From NCBI GenBank assembly GCA_036397855.1, contig DASWID010000012.1:1-46030 (forward strand): a DNA stretch of 46,030 nucleotides, read 5' to 3'. Shown piece after piece: positions 1 through 23,937 of the stretch (positions are counted from its first letter, which is position 1; each line of letters opens with the position of its first letter). Position numbers and translations under genes: made by a program. The notes beneath the pieces were generated by a model that did no database searches, was not told where the DNA came from, and was given only the letters and a program-made list of their open reading frames with translations. This DNA comes from Thermodesulfobacteriota bacterium (GTDB lineage Bacteria > Desulfobacterota_D > UBA1144 > Nemesobacterales > CSP1-2).

Positions 1-2742
<2,742 letters not shown>

Positions 2743-2806
2743 CTGCAAGGCATGAAAAACCTTACATTCTAAAACGCGCCTTGATCTACTCAGCACAATA
2801 TTCAAT

Positions 2807-2819
2807 TGTCAAAGAACAT
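2807..2819 (-). promoter_or_regulatory. boxA-like antitermination element in tRNA-Ala/23S spacer
   Basis: The reverse complement contains TGTTCTTTGACAAT, close to the TGYTCTTTGA boxA sequence bound by NusB/NusE in rRNA transcripts. It lies about 65 nt upstream of the 23S 5' end, the usual place for the spacer boxA. A second boxA is in the 16S leader at 4961-4971. Confidence 0.7.
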
Positions 2820-2853
2820 TTGCGGCTCTATTGCCGCACAACAAATTTAATTT

Positions 2854-2920
2854 GCCACGAATAAACACGAATAAATTCAAAGTAAAGTATTCGTGAAAAA
2901 TTTGTGTTAATTCGTGGTGC
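2854..2920. repeat. CCACGAAT inverted repeat in tRNA-Ala/23S spacer
   Basis: Arms GCCACGAATAAACACGAAT (2854-2872) and TTTGTGTTAATTCGTGG (2901-2917) are an imperfect inverted repeat around an AT-rich loop. The unit 'TTCGTGTTAATTCGTGG' resembles a repeat seen between genes in many environmental genomes (from memory). It would form a stem in the precursor rRNA between the boxA and tRNA-Ala. Confidence 0.65.
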
Positions 2921-2926
2921 CTTAAA

Positions 2927-3000
2927 TGGAGGTGAGCGGAATTGAACCGCCGACCTCCTGCTTGCAAAGCAGGCGCTCTCCCAAACTGAGCTACACCCCC
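2927..3000 (-). tRNA. tRNA-Ala (anticodon UGC)
   Basis: The reverse complement folds as a 74-nt cloverleaf: acceptor GGGGGTG/CACCTCC, D stem GCTC/GAGC, anticodon loop TTTGCAA with anticodon TGC, five-base variable loop, T arm with TTCAATT loop and discriminator A. The 3' CCA is not encoded (TTTA follows), unlike the neighbouring tRNA-Ile. Its position in the 16S-23S spacer is canonical. Confidence 0.97.
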
Positions 3001-3011
3001 AATTCTATGAA

Positions 3012-3068
3012 TTCCAAATCACAAATCCAAAATCCCAATCTTGAAATTTGGTGCTTGAAATTTGGTAC
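3012..3068. repeat. short-period repeats in tRNA-Ile/tRNA-Ala spacer
   Basis: The roughly 75-bp spacer is almost entirely repetitive. 3014-3036 is a run of degenerate 7-mers (CCAAATC, ACAAATC, CAAAATC), and 3041-3068 is a tandem pair of a 14-mer TTGAAATTTGGTGC / TTGAAATTTGGTAC. Both are low-complexity units typical of intergenic DNA rather than of a mature RNA. Confidence 0.7.
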
Positions 3069-3075
3069 TTAATAA

Positions 3076-3152
3076 TGGTGGGCCTAGGTGGAGTCGAACC
3101 ACCGACCTCACCCTTATCAGGGGTACGCTCTAGCCTGCTGAGCTATAGGCCC
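3076..3152 (-). tRNA. tRNA-Ile (anticodon GAU)
   Basis: The reverse complement is a 77-nt cloverleaf: acceptor GGGCCTA/TAGGCCC, D stem GCTC/GAGC, anticodon loop CTGATAA with anticodon GAT, T loop TTCGACT, discriminator A and a genome-encoded CCA. The Ile-Ala pair in the 16S-23S spacer is the common bacterial arrangement. Confidence 0.97.
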
Positions 3153-3168
3153 AGAATTAAACTATGCC

Positions 3169-3233
3169 GGATACAGGATACACGATGCATGCTTTATCTT
3201 TATCCTATATCATGCATCTTGCGTCCTGCATCC
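3169..3233. repeat. heptameric repeat forming a hairpin in 16S/tRNA-Ile spacer
   Basis: Left arm 3169-3191 (units GGATACA GGATACA CGATGCA TG) and right arm 3211-3233 (CATGCAT CTTGCGT CCTGCAT CC) are 23-nt inverted repeats with about four mismatches and a 19-nt loop. Each arm has 7-bp periodicity. It is the same family as 22893-22947, 36093-36129, 38934-38994 and 39964-39994. Confidence 0.75.
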
Positions 3234-3317
3234 ATTATATCAAGGTCTGGCTTAAGAGCACCATATATATAGCAGACACAGCAGAACTGAATAAACACTA
3301 GCAAGGTAACTCCGTGT

Positions 3318-4907
<1,590 letters not shown>

Positions 4908-4960
4908 CTCATTAATCTACTGCTAGCGTATATTCGCCCGCATGTGTCTGCTATTAAATT

Positions 4961-4971
4961 TTCAAAGAACT
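4961..4971 (-). promoter_or_regulatory. boxA of the 16S leader
   Basis: The reverse complement reads AGTTCTTTGAAAATT, matching the rRNA antitermination boxA core. It lies about 55 nt upstream of the 16S 5' end and about 50 nt downstream of the proposed promoter, where a leader boxA is expected. Confidence 0.75.
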
Positions 4972-5011
4972 AATCAATTTATCAATAATTATTAATTGAT
5001 TTAAGTCAAGA

Positions 5012-5046
5012 GATATGTATTATACAAAATGAAAACTACTTGTCAA
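5012..5046 (-). promoter_or_regulatory. sigma70-type rRNA promoter
   Basis: On the minus strand a perfect -35 TTGACA (5041-5046) is followed by a 16-bp spacer and a perfect -10 TATAAT (5019-5024), which puts the transcription start near 5012, about 105 nt upstream of mature 16S. A second TTGACT at 5004-5009 could be the -35 of a tandem promoter, but its -10 is weak. Confidence 0.8.
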
Positions 5047-5292
5047 TAAAGAAATACTAAATGAAAAATATTTTGAATCAACTGGTCTCAAGTCGCCAAA
5101 GATCAGCCAGAAAATTTACGTATTTTTGATCAAAATATTCATCTATATTAATATAAGCATAAAGTGAGTGAATAAAACTACGATTTATCATGATACGATG
5201 AGAGACATCATTAAACTTTATTTTATTACCACTTATCCAAAACCAATTATACCCATGCTTAGGGACATCCTAGAGAGTAATTTTTAGTACAA
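5047..5292. other. AT-rich divergent intergenic region
   Basis: This stretch lies between the rRNA promoter (reading left) and the glycosyltransferase gene (reading right). It is AT-rich with no convincing ORF, RNA gene or strong stem-loop. It presumably holds the promoter of the rightward gene, but I see no clear -35/-10 pair. Confidence 0.5.
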
Positions 5293-6471
5293 ATGAAGGT
5301 CCTGATATATACACATGAGTTCCCCCCATTTCTTGGAGGTCTAGCTAAAACAAGTTTTAAGCTAGCAAGCGGTTTTTCTGAGGGAGGTTTAGAAGTAACT
5401 GTCTTAGCCCCACGTTATTCAGATATGGATAATGAGGTTGACATTGAATGTAAATTCCAGATAAAAAGAATGACAGGTCTATCCAGAAACCATGGTATAC
5501 CTTCGCCTTTGCCAGAAGCGGCCGGCATTTATTCACTATACACCGCGATGAGAAAGTATCGGCCAGATGCTCTGTTGGTTATCACCAGGGAGGGACAAAC
5601 TTCAGGAGGACTTCTACGTGATTATCCCTTGAAGGTAATTGTGAGAGTCGCGGGCTATGAAGCATATCGATATCTTCTTGGTAAAAAATTTTATAACAGA
5701 CTGCTCGGAAAACCTATAAAAAGACTTTATATGAAAGCATCGACAATCGTTAGCCCTAGCCAATCTACCAGAGAACTATTGGAATTAGCGGGAATACCCA
5801 GGGATAAGATCGAGGTGATCTATAATGGTGTCAGCGACGATATGTTATCTCACAAACCAGACACTGATGCCCTGAAGAAGCTGAGAGCCAAGTTTAATTT
5901 GAAAAATGAGGATAAATTAATCCTAACCGTTTCGAGGCTGGTCCCCTCAAAAGGACATAAAGAAGTTATAAGAATCCTACCTCGGTTACTCAAGGAATTT
6001 GAAAACTTAAAATACCTGATTGTGGGAGAAGGGGGATACGAAACAGAGTTAAGAAATTTAGCATCTGAGGAAGGTGTTATCTCGAGTGTAATTTTTGCAG
6101 GTCCCGTGACATATAATGATGTCAAAGATTATCTTGATCTCTGTTACTTATTTGCAATGCCAAACACCTCTAATGAAGAAAAAGAAAGTATCGAAGGATT
6201 GCCTAACGTGATCTTTGAAGCTATGGCAAGGGGAAGGCCAGTAATTACAGGAACTGAGGGAGGGGCAAAAGAAATAGTTGAGCATGGCGTAAATGGATTC
6301 GTGGAAGATGGTAATAATATAGACGCAATTTATGAGCATATTTTAGACCTCCTCAAGAACGAAAAAAAGGCGAAAGATTTTGGTGAAAACTCACGAAGGA
6401 AAATAGCAGAGGGTTATACTGAAGCCAAAATGATTCAGAACTACTTAAAAATCATTTATGATCAACGATAA
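5293..6471 (+). CDS. GT4-family glycosyltransferase
   Basis: A 392-residue GT-B fold glycosyltransferase, probably transferring a sugar from a nucleotide-sugar donor onto a lipid- or glycan-linked acceptor on the cytoplasmic face. The N-terminal Rossmann domain starts MKVLIYTHEFPPFLGGLAK with the glycine-rich acceptor loop typical of GT4. The C-terminal donor domain has SRLVPSKGHKEVI (about residue 215), GEGGYE, and the FEAMARGRPVI...EGGAKEIVEHGVNGF signature (about 310-340) that places the catalytic Glu and sugar-nucleotide contacts. Length is normal. The gene is divergent from the rRNA operon and convergent with the asparagine synthase, so it is transcribed alone. Specific donor and acceptor cannot be read from sequence. 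No clear Shine-Dalgarno precedes the ATG. Confidence 0.9.
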   Translation: MKVLIYTHEFPPFLGGLAKTSFKLASGFSEGGLEVTVLAPRYSDMDNEVDIECKFQIKRMTGLSRNHGIPSPLPEAAGIYSLYTAMRKYRPDALLVITREGQTSGGLLRDYPLKVIVRVAGYEAYRYLLGKKFYNRLLGKPIKRLYMKASTIVSPSQSTRELLELAGIPRDKIEVIYNGVSDDMLSHKPDTDALKKLRAKFNLKNEDKLILTVSRLVPSKGHKEVIRILPRLLKEFENLKYLIVGEGGYETELRNLASEEGVISSVIFAGPVTYNDVKDYLDLCYLFAMPNTSNEEKESIEGLPNVIFEAMARGRPVITGTEGGAKEIVEHGVNGFVEDGNNIDAIYEHILDLLKNEKKAKDFGENSRRKIAEGYTEAKMIQNYLKIIYDQR

Positions 6472-15916: not shown

Positions 15917-17194
15917 ATGAAGGTCAGATCGATAAGGGGCTTTAATGACATACTGCCTGAGACGACGAAGAGATGGCATTTCATAGAGGAAGCGGCTAGA
16001 AAAACATTTGAGCTATATGGCTTTTCCGAAATAAGGACTCCTGTAGTTGAATTTACGGAAATATTTGCAAGGAGTATAGGAACAACAACTGATATAGTCG
16101 AAAAGGAGATGTATACATTTAAAGATAGAGATGGTTCATCTATCACACTTCGCCCAGAATGTACTGCCGGTGTCGTCAGGGCATTCATAGAGAATTCCGT
16201 ATATGCCAAGTCACCGATCGCAAAGTTCTACTACCTGGGCATGATGTTTAGACACGAAAGGCCCCAGAAGGGACGGTACAGAGGGTTTAATCAGATTGGT
16301 GCAGAATTATTTGGGACAAAGAACCCGTATGCAGATGCCGAAATAATTAATATGCTATGGGAGTTTCTCAAAACAATTGGAGTAATCGGCTTGCTCAGGC
16401 TTGAGATAAGCTCTCTGGGGGATGAAAATTGCCGGCCATTGTATATAAAAAAGCTAGTCGATTTCTTCAAACCACTGAGGAATGTCCTCTGTGAGAATTG
16501 TCAGAGGAGGCTTGAACTGAATCCACTGAGAATACTTGATTGCAAAGAAAAAAGATGCAAGGAAATTTCACGAGACGCTCCTTCAATGCTTGATAGTCTC
16601 TGCACCGAATGTACGGATCACTTTGAGCGAGTTAAAAGCTCTTTGGACGGCTTCGGTATTAATTTTGTAATAAACTCGAGGATCGTAAGGGGCCTCGACT
16701 ACTACACTCGCACCGTTTTCGAAATTACAACAGAAAAACTTGGCGCCCAAAATGCAGTAGCAGCAGGAGGTAGATATGACGGTCTTGTAGAAGAATTGGG
16801 CGGACCGCCAACACCTGCAATCGGGTTCTCGATAGGAATGGAAAGATTAGTATCGCTACACGAGCTGATAGCTCCAGAAGGGTTTCAAAAAGAAGTGGAT
16901 GTCTTCATTGCCTTCATAGGCGAGAAAACAAAAAACCCGGCGTTTCAATTAGCATATAACCTGAGGAAGCAAGGTGTATCGGTAGAAATGGACTATGAAA
17001 ACAAAAGCCTCAAGGGCCAGCTCAAGAGGGCAGATAAACTTGGTGCTAAATTCACGGTAATTGTAGGAGAAGAAGAGCTAGGAAGGGGCAAAGTAAAGTT
17101 AAGAAATATGAAAGTAAGCCTCGAGGAGGAAATCGATATAGGGGATGTGACAGAATTGGAAACAAAGATTAAAACACAATTCAATCATCAATAA
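15917..17194 (+). CDS. hisS: Histidyl-tRNA synthetase
   Basis: A 425-residue class II aminoacyl-tRNA synthetase that charges tRNA-His. The start is taken at ATG 15917 (MKVRSIRGFNDILPETTKRW), the standard HisRS N-terminus; 25 further upstream codons are open but derive from a repeat. Motif 2 is seen as FRHERPQKGRYRGFNQIGAE, the HisA motif as RGLDYYTRTVFE, and AAGGRYDGL precedes motif 3 GFSIGMERL. The C-terminal anticodon-binding domain (about 330-425) is present. Length is normal. An insertion with several Cys (CENCQRR...CKEKRC...CTEC, about 198-238) could bind a metal, as in some HisRS subfamilies. The 3' end overlaps the convergent sixA gene by 7 bp. No clear Shine-Dalgarno. Confidence 0.97.
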   Translation: MKVRSIRGFNDILPETTKRWHFIEEAARKTFELYGFSEIRTPVVEFTEIFARSIGTTTDIVEKEMYTFKDRDGSSITLRPECTAGVVRAFIENSVYAKSPIAKFYYLGMMFRHERPQKGRYRGFNQIGAELFGTKNPYADAEIINMLWEFLKTIGVIGLLRLEISSLGDENCRPLYIKKLVDFFKPLRNVLCENCQRRLELNPLRILDCKEKRCKEISRDAPSMLDSLCTECTDHFERVKSSLDGFGINFVINSRIVRGLDYYTRTVFEITTEKLGAQNAVAAGGRYDGLVEELGGPPTPAIGFSIGMERLVSLHELIAPEGFQKEVDVFIAFIGEKTKNPAFQLAYNLRKQGVSVEMDYENKSLKGQLKRADKLGAKFTVIVGEEELGRGKVKLRNMKVSLEEEIDIGDVTELETKIKTQFNHQ

Positions 17195-17673
17195 AGGTCT
17201 CCTGGAGACAGAACCCACTTAACTATCCATCCATTACCCGGACTGGGAAATTTAAGTGAGTCATCCCGGGTCAAACAAACGACAGTTCCTGGCTGAAAGC
17301 TTACTACTGGACGCTCAGGATCGGAAATAACTAAAAGACTTAAAAGTCTCGAAAGAAATGGTAGATGTCCTACAAGCATCAGTGATTTCTCTTCCGAGCA
17401 AAGCAAATCTGCGATTGGATCGACAGCGTCATTTGGAGCAAGTCCTTCAATAGTCTTAACTTTATCGAATATGGACAAACCTGTTGCTATTATCTCAGCG
17501 GTTTCTATTGCTCTTAATTTTTCACTACAGTTAATCTCTTCGGGTCGAATCCCCAGTTTACTTAAAAAGGTAGCCACTCGTTCTACGCTCTGTTTCCCCT
17601 CCACTGATAGTGGCCTTAGGGGATCCTCTAATTCGCCTTTTGCTTCGCCATGCCTTACCAGATAAAAGTACAT
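17188..17673 (-). CDS. sixA: SixA-like phosphohistidine phosphatase
   Basis: A 161-residue histidine phosphatase-superfamily protein. The catalytic RHG is at residues 7-9 (MYFYLVRHGEAKGE), a second core His at 103 (LVGHLPFL), and the SEKLRAIETAEII segment carries the conserved Arg. Length and the absence of a signal peptide match SixA, which dephosphorylates phosphohistidine on HPr/NPr or HPt domains. It is last in a minus-strand run (zinc-ribbon protein, sodC, sixA) with 22-bp gaps and overlaps hisS tail to tail. The physiological substrate here is unknown. Confidence 0.88.
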   Translation of the reverse strand: MYFYLVRHGEAKGELEDPLRPLSVEGKQSVERVATFLSKLGIRPEEINCSEKLRAIETAEIIATGLSIFDKVKTIEGLAPNDAVDPIADLLCSEEKSLMLVGHLPFLSRLLSLLVISDPERPVVSFQPGTVVCLTRDDSLKFPSPGNGWIVKWVLSPGDLY

Positions 17674-17695
17674 GGAATTATCAAAGAAAATAAAA

Positions 17696-18226
17696 TCACT
17701 TCACTCTCTTAATTACGCCGCATGCTATCCGGGCTCCAGCATCGCCGGCAGGATCGGTGATTTGGTCGTCTTTCCCAGCATGAATCACAAGTGCAGCACC
17801 ATCAGGATTGAAAAGAGAGTTTTTGCCAGATCCCAAGGAGGCGAGGGGTGCGAGTACAACCTTTGAAGCGGTGCCATCAGGTCCCACAAGCAAATTAGGC
17901 ATGTCTCCAACGTGTGCTCCTTCGCGGTTTTTTAAGCCATGTTTCCTTTCAAAGGGGTTGAAGTGTCCGCCTGCAGATTTGAAATCATGCGTTTCACATT
18001 TTCCGACGGCATGAATATGAATACCATGAAGTCCCGGCGGCATATCATGTACTTGAACAGATATTTCAACACCGTCAGGCCCCTCTATAAAGGTTGCATA
18101 CCCAACGGTTTTTCCTTGATTATTTATTAGCCTGGTAGCAGCCATTTTTGATTCTGCCCGTAAGTCGGTGAGACCAGCCATAAGAAATAAGAGGATTGTA
18201 AAAATTAAAGAAAAGAATTTTACCAT
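17696..18226 (-). CDS. sodC: Cu/Zn superoxide dismutase, periplasmic
   Basis: A 176-residue secreted SodC that dismutates superoxide outside the cytoplasm. It has a signal peptide (about 1-24, MVKFFSLIFTILLFLMAG), copper/zinc ligands H70 and H72 (GIHIHAVGKCE), H88 (GGHFNP), H96, H105, D108 and H149, and the Cys pair 77/169 for the conserved disulfide. The active-site set is complete and the length normal. It lies 22 bp upstream of sixA and 22 bp downstream of the zinc-ribbon gene, so it is probably part of one transcript. A GGAGG-like site precedes the ATG. It indicates exposure to oxygen. Confidence 0.95.
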   Translation of the reverse strand: MVKFFSLIFTILLFLMAGLTDLRAESKMAATRLINNQGKTVGYATFIEGPDGVEISVQVHDMPPGLHGIHIHAVGKCETHDFKSAGGHFNPFERKHGLKNREGAHVGDMPNLLVGPDGTASKVVLAPLASLGSGKNSLFNPDGAALVIHAGKDDQITDPAGDAGARIACGVIKRVK

Positions 18227-18248
18227 TATATACCTCCTAGTTTAGTTA

Positions 18249-18686
18249 CTAACTGAACTCTATTTTTCTAAAACATTTACCACAAAACTTTATTCCTTTA
18301 TAAAGATCTGCTCCACACTCACACCTCCCTACGACGATTGGCTTCGCAAGCTGTTTTAAGCTGCCGAGCTCTTTTTGAGCGTTTAAATGCACGACCCGCA
18401 ACTCTTGTTGCCTTTCTTCAATTTCATCCTCGAGACTAGAGATATCCATACATTTCGATCTTAAGCTTTCCTCGTTGAATTTATTATTGTGCTTGTACAT
18501 CCTGTACACCGCATTGCCCACATCCTCTATATTTCTCCTCCTCTTCGTCCTGAGTTTCTTGATTTGATTCTTGATCTTCAATGTTTCATAGGCTTCTTTA
18601 GACCAAATATTTACGATTCTCAGGCCTTTGTTTAATCCCTCTCTCAATTTGGTAAGAAGATCGGAAGTTTCATTTGTCTCAGCCAT
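18249..18686 (-). CDS. Coiled-coil protein with C-terminal zinc ribbon
   Basis: A 145-residue protein of unknown function. The N-terminal and central parts are highly charged and helical (NQIKKLRTKRRRNIEDVGNA; LEDEIEERQQELRVVHLNAQKE), likely a coiled coil. The last 30 residues hold CECGADLYKGIKFCGKC, a CxC...CxxC zinc ribbon of the kind found at the ends of many small bacterial proteins. No signal peptide or TM segment. It heads the sodC-sixA run and has a good AAGGAG-type site before the ATG. Nothing in the sequence gives a specific role. Confidence 0.75.
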   Translation of the reverse strand: MAETNETSDLLTKLREGLNKGLRIVNIWSKEAYETLKIKNQIKKLRTKRRRNIEDVGNAVYRMYKHNNKFNEESLRSKCMDISSLEDEIEERQQELRVVHLNAQKELGSLKQLAKPIVVGRCECGADLYKGIKFCGKCFRKIEFS

Positions 18687-19227: not shown

Positions 19228-20487
19228 GTGTTAAGAAAGAAAATCTTCTATGGTTGGTACATCGTCGGAGCATCCCTGATTTTAATCATCATGGATGGAC
19301 TTCTTCTCTATTCCTTTGGCGTATTCCTGCCTTTCTTAAATGAAGAGTTCGGTTTTTCCAGAGCAATGGGTTCCTCGATATTCTCATTAAGATCCTTTGT
19401 GCTCGCCTTCTCCTTGACTCTGGCTGGAAAACTCGTGGATAAGTATGACCCTCGAAAGGTAGTGCTAGCAGGGGGTATAATCGCTGCTCTCGGAGTATTT
19501 TCATCAGGACTCGCAACGAAGGGCTGGCAGCTCTATTTGACATACGGTCTGCTGATTGGACTCGGAGACGGAGTTTTATACATAACCTGTGTTGCCGTAG
19601 TAAGCAGATGGTTTGTAAAGAAAAGAGCGCTTGCGATAGGAATCATAACAACTGGGATCCCACTTAGTGGACTCATTACGAACCCTCTCACCGCATGGCT
19701 AATCTCAAGCTTCGGAGTAAGAGATGCATTCTTCTCGCTTGCCGGAATTATCATGATCTCCATTCTCTCGGCATTGCTGTTAAGGGGTTATCCAGCAGAT
19801 AAGAACCTAAAGCCTTACGGTGAGGAGAATGGAGATAGGTCAAAAACTCAGCCAATTCAGAGCAAAATTAAAAATAATGATGACTGGAAGGCGCTGGAGG
19901 CAATTTCTACACCTACCTTCTGGTTTATGTATTCCATGTACTTTCTAAGTTTTACTACATTTCTAATCGTAGTCATACATCTATTTAACTTCGCAATTGA
20001 TTTAGGAATCCCTCCTCTTGTAGCTTCCGGTGCTCCCGCAGCTATTGGGATTGGAAGTTTAGTCGGGAGAATTGTTCTTTCGGCACTACTGACAGAAGTG
20101 ATACACACCACTAAGGTTCTACTCATATGCTTCCTGTTTCAGGGAAGCTCTATTCTACTGATACTCGGATTTGGAGAAATCTGGTCATTCTATTTATTCG
20201 GACTACTGTTTGGATTTTTCTATAGCGGCACTGTCCCTATCTTCCCGACACTGCTAGGAAGATTCTTTGGGCTAAGCGCACTCGGAACTATTTACGGATT
20301 CTTTGGCACCTCGTATTCGGTGGCTGCAATAGGAGGACCTCTAATTGCAGGGTACATACACGATGTGACAGGCACATACCTTTACTCATTTATTCTTGCC
20401 GTAGTCTTTTGCTATATGGCAGCATCATTGAGTTTCTTCATAAAGAAGCCTAGGAAGCTTAGGGGAGAAGTAGCTACAGTCGCTTAA
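19228..20487 (+). CDS. MFS transporter, monocarboxylate/oxalate-formate antiporter type
   Basis: A 419-residue protein with about 12 TM helices in two halves, separated by a hydrophilic loop (about 190-220, ADKNLKPYGEENGDRSKTQ). The N-terminal FYGWYIVGASLILIIMDG and the loop-2 segment GKLVDKYDPRKVVLAGG resemble the MCT/OxlT-like branch of the major facilitator superfamily, which carries small organic anions. The start is GTG at 19228 with GAGAG a few bases upstream. It is the first of three co-oriented genes (MFS, pseudopeptidase, HDAC-like), separated by 70 and 14 bp. The substrate cannot be assigned. Confidence 0.88.
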   Translation: MLRKKIFYGWYIVGASLILIIMDGLLLYSFGVFLPFLNEEFGFSRAMGSSIFSLRSFVLAFSLTLAGKLVDKYDPRKVVLAGGIIAALGVFSSGLATKGWQLYLTYGLLIGLGDGVLYITCVAVVSRWFVKKRALAIGIITTGIPLSGLITNPLTAWLISSFGVRDAFFSLAGIIMISILSALLLRGYPADKNLKPYGEENGDRSKTQPIQSKIKNNDDWKALEAISTPTFWFMYSMYFLSFTTFLIVVIHLFNFAIDLGIPPLVASGAPAAIGIGSLVGRIVLSALLTEVIHTTKVLLICFLFQGSSILLILGFGEIWSFYLFGLLFGFFYSGTVPIFPTLLGRFFGLSALGTIYGFFGTSYSVAAIGGPLIAGYIHDVTGTYLYSFILAVVFCYMAASLSFFIKKPRKLRGEVATVA

Positions 20488-20557: not shown

Positions 20558-22042
20558 ATGTACCAGAATACGACTACAGACATTTGCGAAGCCGCCGAGA
20601 AATTTCTCAAGGCATTGAATCTCGAAAAATATAACATTCTTTCGGGCTTGAAATCAGAAAGTAATCTAGACTATATATTCAGAAATTATTCTGACTTCCT
20701 GGACCCCGGACCTTTTTTGTCAATTAAAGCAATACACGCTCACAATGAAAAAGAAGAGAAAGGATTGAGGTTAATGCTATCCTTTTTGGCAAGAACCTTT
20801 ATCGAGGGCAGGTCAGCAAAGTTAAGAGACCAAATTCTAAATACCGAAAGTAGGGCATCAATCATTTATAACAAAAGATCTATTCACTATAGATCTATTA
20901 TGTACGAGATAAAAAACGAACCGAAGAGATCAAATAGGGAAGAACTAAATAGGAAGAGACAGGAAATCGTCTTAAGTCTCAATCCACTGTATCTCAAATT
21001 ATTAGAAACTTTTAATAAAGATTCAGAGGAGCTAGGCTTTCCAACATATATTAGACTGCGCGATGACTCAGAGGGCATAGGGCTCAGTAAATTAAGGGAA
21101 GAAGCAAAGCTTTTTTTGAGTGATACAGAGTATATTTATAGGGATCTGCTCAAGTGGTTTCTCCTGAGGCGTATGGAACTGAAACTGGAAGACGTGAATT
21201 TGAACGATCTTCATTACTTATTTAGCTCATTCGAATTGAGATCCAATTTCCCTAAATCGCTATTAGAAATAATCGCAAAAAGTCTGCTCTCGGAAATGAA
21301 TATACAGTTTGCCAGCAGCATAAAAACAGATTCTGAGAAGAGAAATGGGAAAGTTCCAGGATCATTTTGCCTTCCAATAGAAGTCCCAAACAAGATTCTG
21401 TGTTCAATAAACCCGATTGGAGGGGTCGAGGATTATGAATCCTTCTTTCAAACACTGGGAAAAGCATTATGTTATGCTTACACCGAACCAGACGAATCCT
21501 TCGAATTCAGAATGCTCAGGGAATCGACGTATTTAGCGATCTTTTCTCATTTATTTAAAAATCTGATATATCAACCCAAGTGGATAAAAAAATACTTAAA
21601 ACTTGACCCGGGTAGCGACTTTTTGGAATTCATGCATTTAAGACAGCTAATGACCCTGAGATATTACTGCGGGAAACTTATCTATGAGTTTTTAATTCAT
21701 GAAAACGATGAACATCAAAATAGGTCGGAATATTACTCACAAATCCTGAAGGAAGCTATATTGGCTAAACATGATGAAGCGGATTACCTAATCGATACTG
21801 AACCATTCTTCGATTCGGCTGTTTATCTTAGATCGAGCTTCATTGAGGCTAGTTTTAGACCTTTCTTAAGAGAGGCTTTTGATGAGGAGTGGTGGAGGAA
21901 AAAAGAGGCTGGAAATTTATTTCTTAACTTGTGGAAAGATGGAGGCAGGATGACATCAAAAGATATCGCCGAGAAATGTGGAATAAAAGAAATAGATTCA
22001 ACCCAACTGTTAACTAATTTTCAACAAATTTTTGGGTCATAA
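20558..22042 (+). CDS. Uncharacterised protein resembling an M3-type peptidase with lost zinc site
   Basis: A 494-residue, largely helical cytosolic protein with no signal peptide or TM segment. The region 268-340 follows the pattern of M3/oligoendopeptidase-like families: SFCLPIEVP, GGVEDYESFF, then a glycine-centred helix, then FEFRMLREST...HLFKNLIYQPKWI. Where active relatives have HExGH this one has QTLGK (298-302), so both His ligands and the catalytic Glu are replaced. The downstream third-ligand Glu also appears to be absent (RESTYLAIFSHLF, 321-333). The assignment is from pattern memory, not an alignment. If right, it is a pseudopeptidase, perhaps a peptide-binding or scaffold protein. 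It ends 14 bp before the HDAC-like gene, so the pair is probably cotranslated. Confidence 0.55.
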   Translation: MYQNTTTDICEAAEKFLKALNLEKYNILSGLKSESNLDYIFRNYSDFLDPGPFLSIKAIHAHNEKEEKGLRLMLSFLARTFIEGRSAKLRDQILNTESRASIIYNKRSIHYRSIMYEIKNEPKRSNREELNRKRQEIVLSLNPLYLKLLETFNKDSEELGFPTYIRLRDDSEGIGLSKLREEAKLFLSDTEYIYRDLLKWFLLRRMELKLEDVNLNDLHYLFSSFELRSNFPKSLLEIIAKSLLSEMNIQFASSIKTDSEKRNGKVPGSFCLPIEVPNKILCSINPIGGVEDYESFFQTLGKALCYAYTEPDESFEFRMLRESTYLAIFSHLFKNLIYQPKWIKKYLKLDPGSDFLEFMHLRQLMTLRYYCGKLIYEFLIHENDEHQNRSEYYSQILKEAILAKHDEADYLIDTEPFFDSAVYLRSSFIEASFRPFLREAFDEEWWRKKEAGNLFLNLWKDGGRMTSKDIAEKCGIKEIDSTQLLTNFQQIFGS

Positions 22043-22056
22043 TTTAGTAGTTCTAA

Positions 22057-22887
22057 ATGAGCACTGGTATCTTCTATAGCCACATATTTAAGACAAGCCC
22101 GGGCCCTGTGGTCGGGCCGAAATTCATCAATTTCCCCGAATTGCTCGATGGAGTTCTACGATTACCGAACGTAAGACTATTTGAGCATGAACCTGTGACA
22201 GAGGATTTGCTTCTAAAATTTCACACCAGGGAAATGATCGAGAATCTCAGAAAAAGATCGTATGGGAAAAATGCATTCCTCTCAGTGGGAGCCTGTATTG
22301 CGGCTACGAAAATGATTATGGGTGGAGAATTAAAGAACGGTCTGCTATTCAACAGTGCCTCTGGACACCATGCTGGACGAACATCGGCATGGGGAGGGAC
22401 TTACATAAACTGCGTTGCACCAGCCGTATATACAGCAAGAAAGACACCTGGTATTGAGAAATTTGTCCTTCTTGATACCGACTGTCATCATGGAGACGGC
22501 GATAGGGATATGTTTGAAAATGACGATTCATTTTTTCATATCTGTTTCTGTGACTCGGATTTTGAGAGCGAAACAAATAAATGTGTTGGTGTGGGTTGGA
22601 GTTCAACCGATGAAAATTATCTTAGTCTGATAAAGACTGAATTCATGCCTCGAGCTAGAAGCTTTAAGCCCGAGATGATATTTCACTTTCTGGGCCATGA
22701 TACTTGCCGGGGTGACTATGGAGATATTGGATTAACTGAGGGATTTTTTATTGAACTCGTAAGAGTAGTAAAAGAGTTCTCGGAAGAGGTTTGTAAAGGC
22801 AGGTATTTAATAATTACGGGCGGGGGCTCACGTCGAGATGTCGCGGAATACATATTTCCAAAGATTGCCGAAATTCTGGCAAGTTAA
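22057..22887 (+). CDS. Histone-deacetylase-family protein with altered catalytic Tyr
   Basis: A 276-residue arginase-fold HDAC/acetylpolyamine amidohydrolase family protein. Visible family marks: tandem active-site His (SGHHAG, H104-H105), the zinc-site block LLDTDCHHGDG (D142, H144), and the third ligand Asp in LGHDTCRGDYG (D215). The usual C-terminal GGGY, whose Tyr stabilises the oxyanion, reads TGGGSRRD here, with Ser258 in its place. In class IIa HDACs a Tyr-to-His change greatly lowers acetyl-lysine activity. This protein may therefore act on another amide or be weakly active. It is shorter than typical family members (about 300-370). Start at ATG 22057, 14 bp after the putative pseudopeptidase. 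Confidence 0.8.
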   Translation: MSTGIFYSHIFKTSPGPVVGPKFINFPELLDGVLRLPNVRLFEHEPVTEDLLLKFHTREMIENLRKRSYGKNAFLSVGACIAATKMIMGGELKNGLLFNSASGHHAGRTSAWGGTYINCVAPAVYTARKTPGIEKFVLLDTDCHHGDGDRDMFENDDSFFHICFCDSDFESETNKCVGVGWSSTDENYLSLIKTEFMPRARSFKPEMIFHFLGHDTCRGDYGDIGLTEGFFIELVRVVKEFSEEVCKGRYLIITGGGSRRDVAEYIFPKIAEILAS

Positions 22888-22892
22888 AATAA

Positions 22893-22947
22893 AGATGCAG
22901 GATGCAAGATTCAGGATGCAGGATGCAGGATGCATCGTGCATCATGG
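22893..22947. repeat. (GATGCAN)n heptameric repeat
   Basis: Eight successive 7-mers are readable (GATGCAG, GATGCAA, GATTCAG, GATGCAG, GATGCAG, GATGCAT, CGTGCAT, CATGGAT), starting about 6 bp after the HDAC-like stop codon. The phase flips to the complementary unit (GCATCNT) near the end, so the run can fold back. The last bases overlap the 3' end of the convergent oxidoreductase gene. Confidence 0.8.
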
Positions 22948-23937
22948 ATTCAAAATCACCTTTCCAAACTGACTCCTCTCCTCCAAGAGCTTTTGCGCGA
23001 TAGCCGCCTCTTTTAAAGGAAAAGTCCTATCTATCACAGGGCGAATAGTTTTCTGAGAAACCAAATTCATAACACTGATCAAATTATTCCTTGGCGCATT
23101 AAACACTGTCACTCCAAAAATGGAAACGTCTTTCATAATTATCGGCCCGAAATTTATTGTAGCTGAACCCCCACCAACAACTCCCACCAACAGAAGCCTC
23201 CCTTTTGGAGAAAGAGCTTGTATATTTTTTTCCCATACCGAGGCCCCAATTTGGTCGAATATAACGTCAACACCCTTATTATTGGTTATTTTCTTCACTT
23301 CTTCCGAAAAGTCTAACCTATTGTAATTTACGGTTTCATCCGCCCCAAGTTCCTTAGCCTTTGAAAGCTTCTCGTCAGTGCCCGCCGTAGCAATTACCTC
23401 CGCGCCTGAGAGTTTTGCAAGCTGCACTGCTGCGCTTCCAGTACCGCTCCCTGCTGCATGAACAAGTACAATTTCACCCCGTTTTAACCCTGCCCGTTCA
23501 AATAGACCATACCAGGCAGTGACGTAACATATCGGAAGGGTTGAAGCATCATCATATGACAGGTCATCGGGTATGGGAACAACATTCGATGCAGGTACTT
23601 TCACGTACTCCGCAAACCCGCCATAAAGATTTACACCTATTACCTTAGGGGGGCCGCCTGACTTCAGCGTCGGATCTATGACAACTCTTGTCCCTATCTT
23701 CAAGTCTTTAACATTCATCCCAACCTCTGCCACATCTCCGGCAATATCCACACCCCCGATATGGGGGAGGTCAACTGGCCTCGGAGATTTACCCGATCTC
23801 AATCGCAAATCCAATTGGTTTAAAGAAGAAGCCTTCACTCTCACGACTACTTCATCACCTCCTGCTTTAGGATCAGGCACATCCTCGTATCTCAGGACTT
23901 CAACGCCTCCAAACTCATGATATCTAATTGCCTTCAT
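22942..23937 (-). CDS. Zinc-independent quinone oxidoreductase (MDR superfamily)
   Basis: A 331-residue medium-chain dehydrogenase/reductase of the NAD(P)H:quinone reductase group. The GroES-like domain begins MKAIRYHEFGGVEVLRYEDV. The catalytic-zinc Cys of alcohol dehydrogenases is replaced (SSLNQLDLRLRSG), and the structural-zinc Cys cluster is absent. The Rossmann domain shows VLVHAAGSGTGSAAVQLAK (about 143-161), the AAxGxxG-type nucleotide motif of QOR proteins. It probably reduces quinones or activated double bonds with NADPH. GGAGGG precedes the ATG, and the gene stands alone. Confidence 0.88.
   Translation of the reverse strand: MKAIRYHEFGGVEVLRYEDVPDPKAGGDEVVVRVKASSLNQLDLRLRSGKSPRPVDLPHIGGVDIAGDVAEVGMNVKDLKIGTRVVIDPTLKSGGPPKVIGVNLYGGFAEYVKVPASNVVPIPDDLSYDDASTLPICYVTAWYGLFERAGLKRGEIVLVHAAGSGTGSAAVQLAKLSGAEVIATAGTDEKLSKAKELGADETVNYNRLDFSEEVKKITNNKGVDVIFDQIGASVWEKNIQALSPKGRLLLVGVVGGGSATINFGPIIMKDVSIFGVTVFNAPRNNLISVMNLVSQKTIRPVIDRTFPLKEAAIAQKLLEERSQFGKVILNP

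Follow-up and report, generated by a model that had tools for sequence, protein, structure and literature searches.

Pseudopeptidases described so far are mostly eukaryotic. In C. elegans, ACN-1 is an inactive homologue of the M2 family whose zinc ligands are absent and whose knockout is lethal (PMC9518657), so a pseudopeptidase of the M2/M3 fold is a kind already known. A review on inactive metallopeptidases from 2024 gives an M16B pair as its prokaryotic example, and the terms 'M2 family', 'M3 family', 'ACN-1' and 'oligopeptidase' do not occur in its main text (PMC11266112). In a limited literature search we did not find a bacterial, lineage-wide and repeatedly arising inactive form. The gene studied here lies in a stretch of DNA of 46,030 nucleotides, hereafter the window, from the Candidatus Dadabacteria group, which is the phylum meant below, and its immediate surroundings are as follows.

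19228..20487, + strand: MFS transporter of monocarboxylate/oxalate-formate (MCT/OFA) type, constant upstream neighbour, 70 bp away
20558..22042, + strand: pseudopeptidase gene, 494 aa, with an M2/M3-type gluzincin fold and the zinc site gone (ORF, alignment, AlphaFold, Foldseek)
22057..22887, + strand: HDAC-like gene (PF00850, E 2e-31), neighbour in family f1 only
22942..23937, - strand: quinone oxidoreductase/ADH-type gene; at loci that lack the HDAC gene, it is usually the convergent neighbour downstream

Searched alone, the window protein had no match in Pfam, in NCBIfam or in single-sequence searches of the PDB. Its AlphaFold model, built together with 21 relatives, reached a pLDDT of 93.3 and a pTM of 0.93, and the 50 PDB matches listed by Foldseek were solely M2/M3 gluzincins; the comparison with neurolysin (5luz) gave E 7.5e-11, and TM scores were 0.71 with Pz peptidase (3ahm), 0.70 with PepF (3sks) and 0.80-0.81 with ACE domains. 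On this model the protein is a gluzincin of the M2/M3 fold, as near M2 (ACE) as M3, so that the structure search suggested in a preliminary description of the locus bears out the gluzincin part of its proposal, while the M3-type scaffold named there was too narrow. The window protein has the fold of the M3 family (PF01432) and does not reach the Pfam gathering score for it, nor does any of the 21 clade members scanned (best E 0.0064). With hhalign, the subfamily profile including intact relatives matched canonical M3 at 97% (E 1.4e-11), whereas the inactive clade on its own matched weakly (probability 7%, E 0.005). A search of the PDB with that clade's profile found no related sequence. The M2 (ACE) fold is likewise present, an M2 sequence match and HExxH...E are not, and profile matches to ACE2 were weak even with intact relatives added.

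Compared with the M3 enzymes (neurolysin, thimet oligopeptidase, PepF and Pz peptidase), the pseudopeptidase thus has the fold and the helix register of HExGH in common, but lacks the zinc ligands and the catalytic Glu. ACE and ACE2 of M2 have a like fold at about 11% identity, and differ from the pseudopeptidase in that the latter is cytosolic and bacterial; ACN-1 resembles it in the M2 fold with missing zinc ligands, and would represent a separate loss, in animals. Closer at hand is an intact bacterial subfamily, represented by L047 of genome G154 (34% identity by BLAST), the model of which has its secondary-structure elements in the same order as the window protein and PDB neighbours of like kind; unlike the window gene, L047 keeps HELGH and the Glu, and MFS and HDAC genes do not adjoin it.

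Homologues with 29-54% identity, most of them full length, were found in 23 of 58 genomes of the window's phylum, among them the named Candidatus Dadabacteria CSP1-2 and MAGs labelled Desulfobacterota and Deltaproteobacteria. Nearly all carrier genomes have an ORF of about 490 aa free of internal stops, and a second subfamily member, looked for in the same genomes, was not found. Outside the phylum, a search with the clade profile found relatives in 32 genomes at E <= 0.01, the sampling of the subfamily comprising several hundred genomes. The window protein is full length and, by hydrophobicity, soluble, with no signal peptide and no transmembrane segment. Several distant members (L067, L069, L070, L071, L075, L079, L080 and L081) have an N-terminal hydrophobic segment, which suggests that exported or lipoprotein forms exist in the subfamily besides cytosolic ones.

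The residues on which the loss of the zinc site and the later comparison depend are the following.

21431..21442, + strand: DYES, residues 292-295; intact relatives vary at E294, the inactive clade does not
21449..21463, + strand: QTLGK, residues 298-302, where intact relatives have HExGH (alignment)
21536..21538, + strand: A327, in the column of the third zinc ligand, which is Glu in 96% of intact relatives (alignment)
21812..21826, + strand: D419...Y423, in the columns of two conserved Tyr of intact relatives (88% and 96%; alignment)

Column for column, QTLGK aligns with the HExGH of 26 relatives classed as intact by the HE.GH sequence motif only, and both His and the catalytic Glu are replaced (Q298, T299 and K302), as the preliminary description had read from the sequence. 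Its further remark that the later Glu ligand seems absent agrees with the Ala at 327, and the Tyr at 419 is lost while Y423 is retained. A complete zinc site is absent from 22 of 22 phylum homologues that cover the motif, all of which lack at least the second His, and for this reason chance resemblance and sequencing error are ruled out. Two clade members keep the first half of the motif, HELGT in L008 and HETGA in L021, so that loss of the second His, the sole loss common to the whole clade, was probably the earliest; a Glu or Asp at the third-ligand position survives in about half of the clade. A replacement His/Cys metal site was sought and not found, as conservation of His or Cys stays below 90% in every column. 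Homologous to peptidases with intact sites and deprived of its own catalytic residues, the window protein is predicted to be catalytically inactive, and the catalytically dead M3-like peptidase proposed earlier is upheld by the fold, by the alignment with intact relatives and by the conservation across the lineage.

Phylogenetic analysis placed the inactive members of the window's phylum in one monophyletic clade (support 100/99), and other inactive members (L068/L074, L072/L073, L081 and L086) were separate on the tree. The intact and inactive labels need 5 changes, of which the supported branches force at least 3. In the small G289 phylum (5 genomes) the motif is absent in all 4 carriers, and 4 genomes of family f81 in the G130 phylum each have a best match without it. 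These members belong to the same subfamily, carry SALGR, GALGR, HLLGM, HILGM and other motifs, and have neighbouring genes different from those of the window clade (NAPRTase and DUF92; PpiD-like). As read from motifs and tree, subfamily members of at least two further bacterial groups have lost the site independently, separately from the loss in the window clade.

Estimates of selection gave dN/dS of 0.16-0.25 for close pairs of the inactive clade, in which synonymous sites are not saturated, and 0.12 for the pair L014-L017 (dS 1.3), so the pseudopeptidase genes are maintained by selection. The losses fall precisely on the catalytic positions. These six former catalytic positions had a mean entropy of 2.55 bits in the inactive clade versus 1.73 overall (P = 0.006, random draws), and in the 26 intact relatives the same six are nearly fixed (entropy 0 to 0.6). 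New invariants of the clade include Y192, W200, S224, E226, E294 and R447. Judged from these substitution patterns, the protein is kept, yet not for its old active site. Because the dead form has been kept under selection across the lineage, the protein probably does something other than cutting, and we favour as the probable explanation a cytosolic non-catalytic gluzincin that works as a binding or scaffold protein. Since the old active-site positions vary freely, its function would most likely reside elsewhere than in peptide capture by the dead site, on the surfaces that bear new invariants (helix 189-200, 223-227, 292-295, 354-355 and 442-447).

A decaying pseudogene, to which the lost catalytic residues might point, can be practically dismissed, as it is contradicted both by the stop-free ORFs in nearly all genomes and by the dN/dS values. 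The intact overall fold would also suit a cleft that holds peptides without cleaving them, and such substrate sequestration has been suggested for ACN-1 (PMC9518657); however, most inactive members no longer have the Tyr at 419 and 423, and the old site varies, and a peptide trap is accordingly rather unlikely. The scaffold might also serve some other chemistry not yet recognised, such as a carboxylate-based one drawing on D292, E294 and E316, all invariant in the inactive clade, but D292 and E316 are also found in 77% of intact relatives and are thus likely structural, and with the old-site positions varying freely and no conserved His or Cys column, we regard new chemistry as very unlikely. 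The combination of a variable old site with invariants elsewhere speaks against alternative catalysis at that site, and likewise against plain trapping of peptides in it. It might further be supposed that the protein, itself inactive, partners or regulates another peptidase, such as the canonical M3 of the same genomes, in the way of the inactive alpha subunit of the mitochondrial processing peptidase (MPP; PMC11266112). A canonical PF01432 peptidase is indeed present in 61 of 61 genomes searched, but it is equally present in genomes without the pseudopeptidase, and these genomes contain no active member of the pseudopeptidase's own subfamily, which makes this relationship improbable.

The preliminary description had proposed that the pseudopeptidase and the HDAC-like protein act together, on the ground of a distance of 14 bp, and the distance is as given there (the ORF ends at 22042 and the HDAC-like gene starts at 22057, on the same strand). 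While each of the 7 genomes of family f1 has an HDAC orthologue, it is absent from all 16 pseudopeptidase genomes of three other families, and is thus found in 7 of 23 carriers; even in f1 the two genes lie anywhere from 14 bp to 5.8 kb apart, with unrelated genes intervening, and the HDAC-like proteins are 67-79% identical where the pseudopeptidases are 44-54% identical. The survey of adjacency therefore found homologues with no HDAC linkage, which is part of what the preliminary description itself had said would speak against its idea, and a joint action of the two proteins appears highly improbable. The HDAC-like orthologues (n=7) keep the HH pair and the Asp/His/Asp zinc ligands, and have an invariant GGG, not GGY, the usual catalytic-tyrosine motif of HDACs; this GGG subfamily is small and was confined to family f1 among the genomes searched.

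For the cytosolic binding or scaffold protein that we favour, the MFS transporter is the first candidate partner, tentatively, and might be stabilised or regulated from the cytosolic side. At 19 of 19 loci where the contig allows the test, it is the gene immediately upstream, on the same strand and 26-290 bp away. The transporter resembles lactate and oxalate/formate transporters, with scores below curated cut-offs. It is, however, a core gene that 53 of 61 genomes carry; genomes that lack the pseudopeptidase are among them, and there it usually stands beside hisS and/or nuoG, so that inherited gene order, with slow change, could by itself explain the pairing. Adjacency of the ADH-type gene to the pseudopeptidase is nearly as constant, the MFS and the pseudopeptidase have very different evolutionary rates, and a diverged pseudopeptidase copy beside the MFS was sought and not found in genomes without the pseudopeptidase. 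Promoter and terminator scans did no better than on shuffled sequences.

Farther upstream of the MFS, positions 17188-18686 hold sixA and a Cu-Zn sodC, along with a small conserved protein of no known family, a second block that is partly conserved in relatives. Positions 1-5300 contain only one ORF of at least 120 aa and adjoining tRNA-Ala and tRNA-Ile genes, and look like an rRNA operon spacer. The nearest intact relative, L055 of genome G154, lies in divergent orientation beside nuoJ/nuoL-like genes; the window pseudopeptidase gene is a few genes from nuoG/nuoH, and this parallel is maybe a coincidence. An SDR gene as the neighbour of some intact loci was rejected, SDRs being abundant and the loci unrelated.

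ACE2 is known as a partner of amino-acid transporters. It is conceivable, although we put this forward as a speculative proposal, that a bacterial subfamily of ACE/neurolysin type repeatedly dropped catalysis in separate phyla and was kept in non-catalytic form, which would point to a second function, so far unrecognised and already present in the active enzymes, that the fold serves, such as that of a membrane-transporter partner. With a single-copy inactive gluzincin carried by much of one bacterial order, relatives elsewhere that keep the site, and intermediates in which it is partly degraded, such as HELGT and HETGA, the family offers a tractable case for what this fold does without catalysis and for how often catalysis is dispensable.
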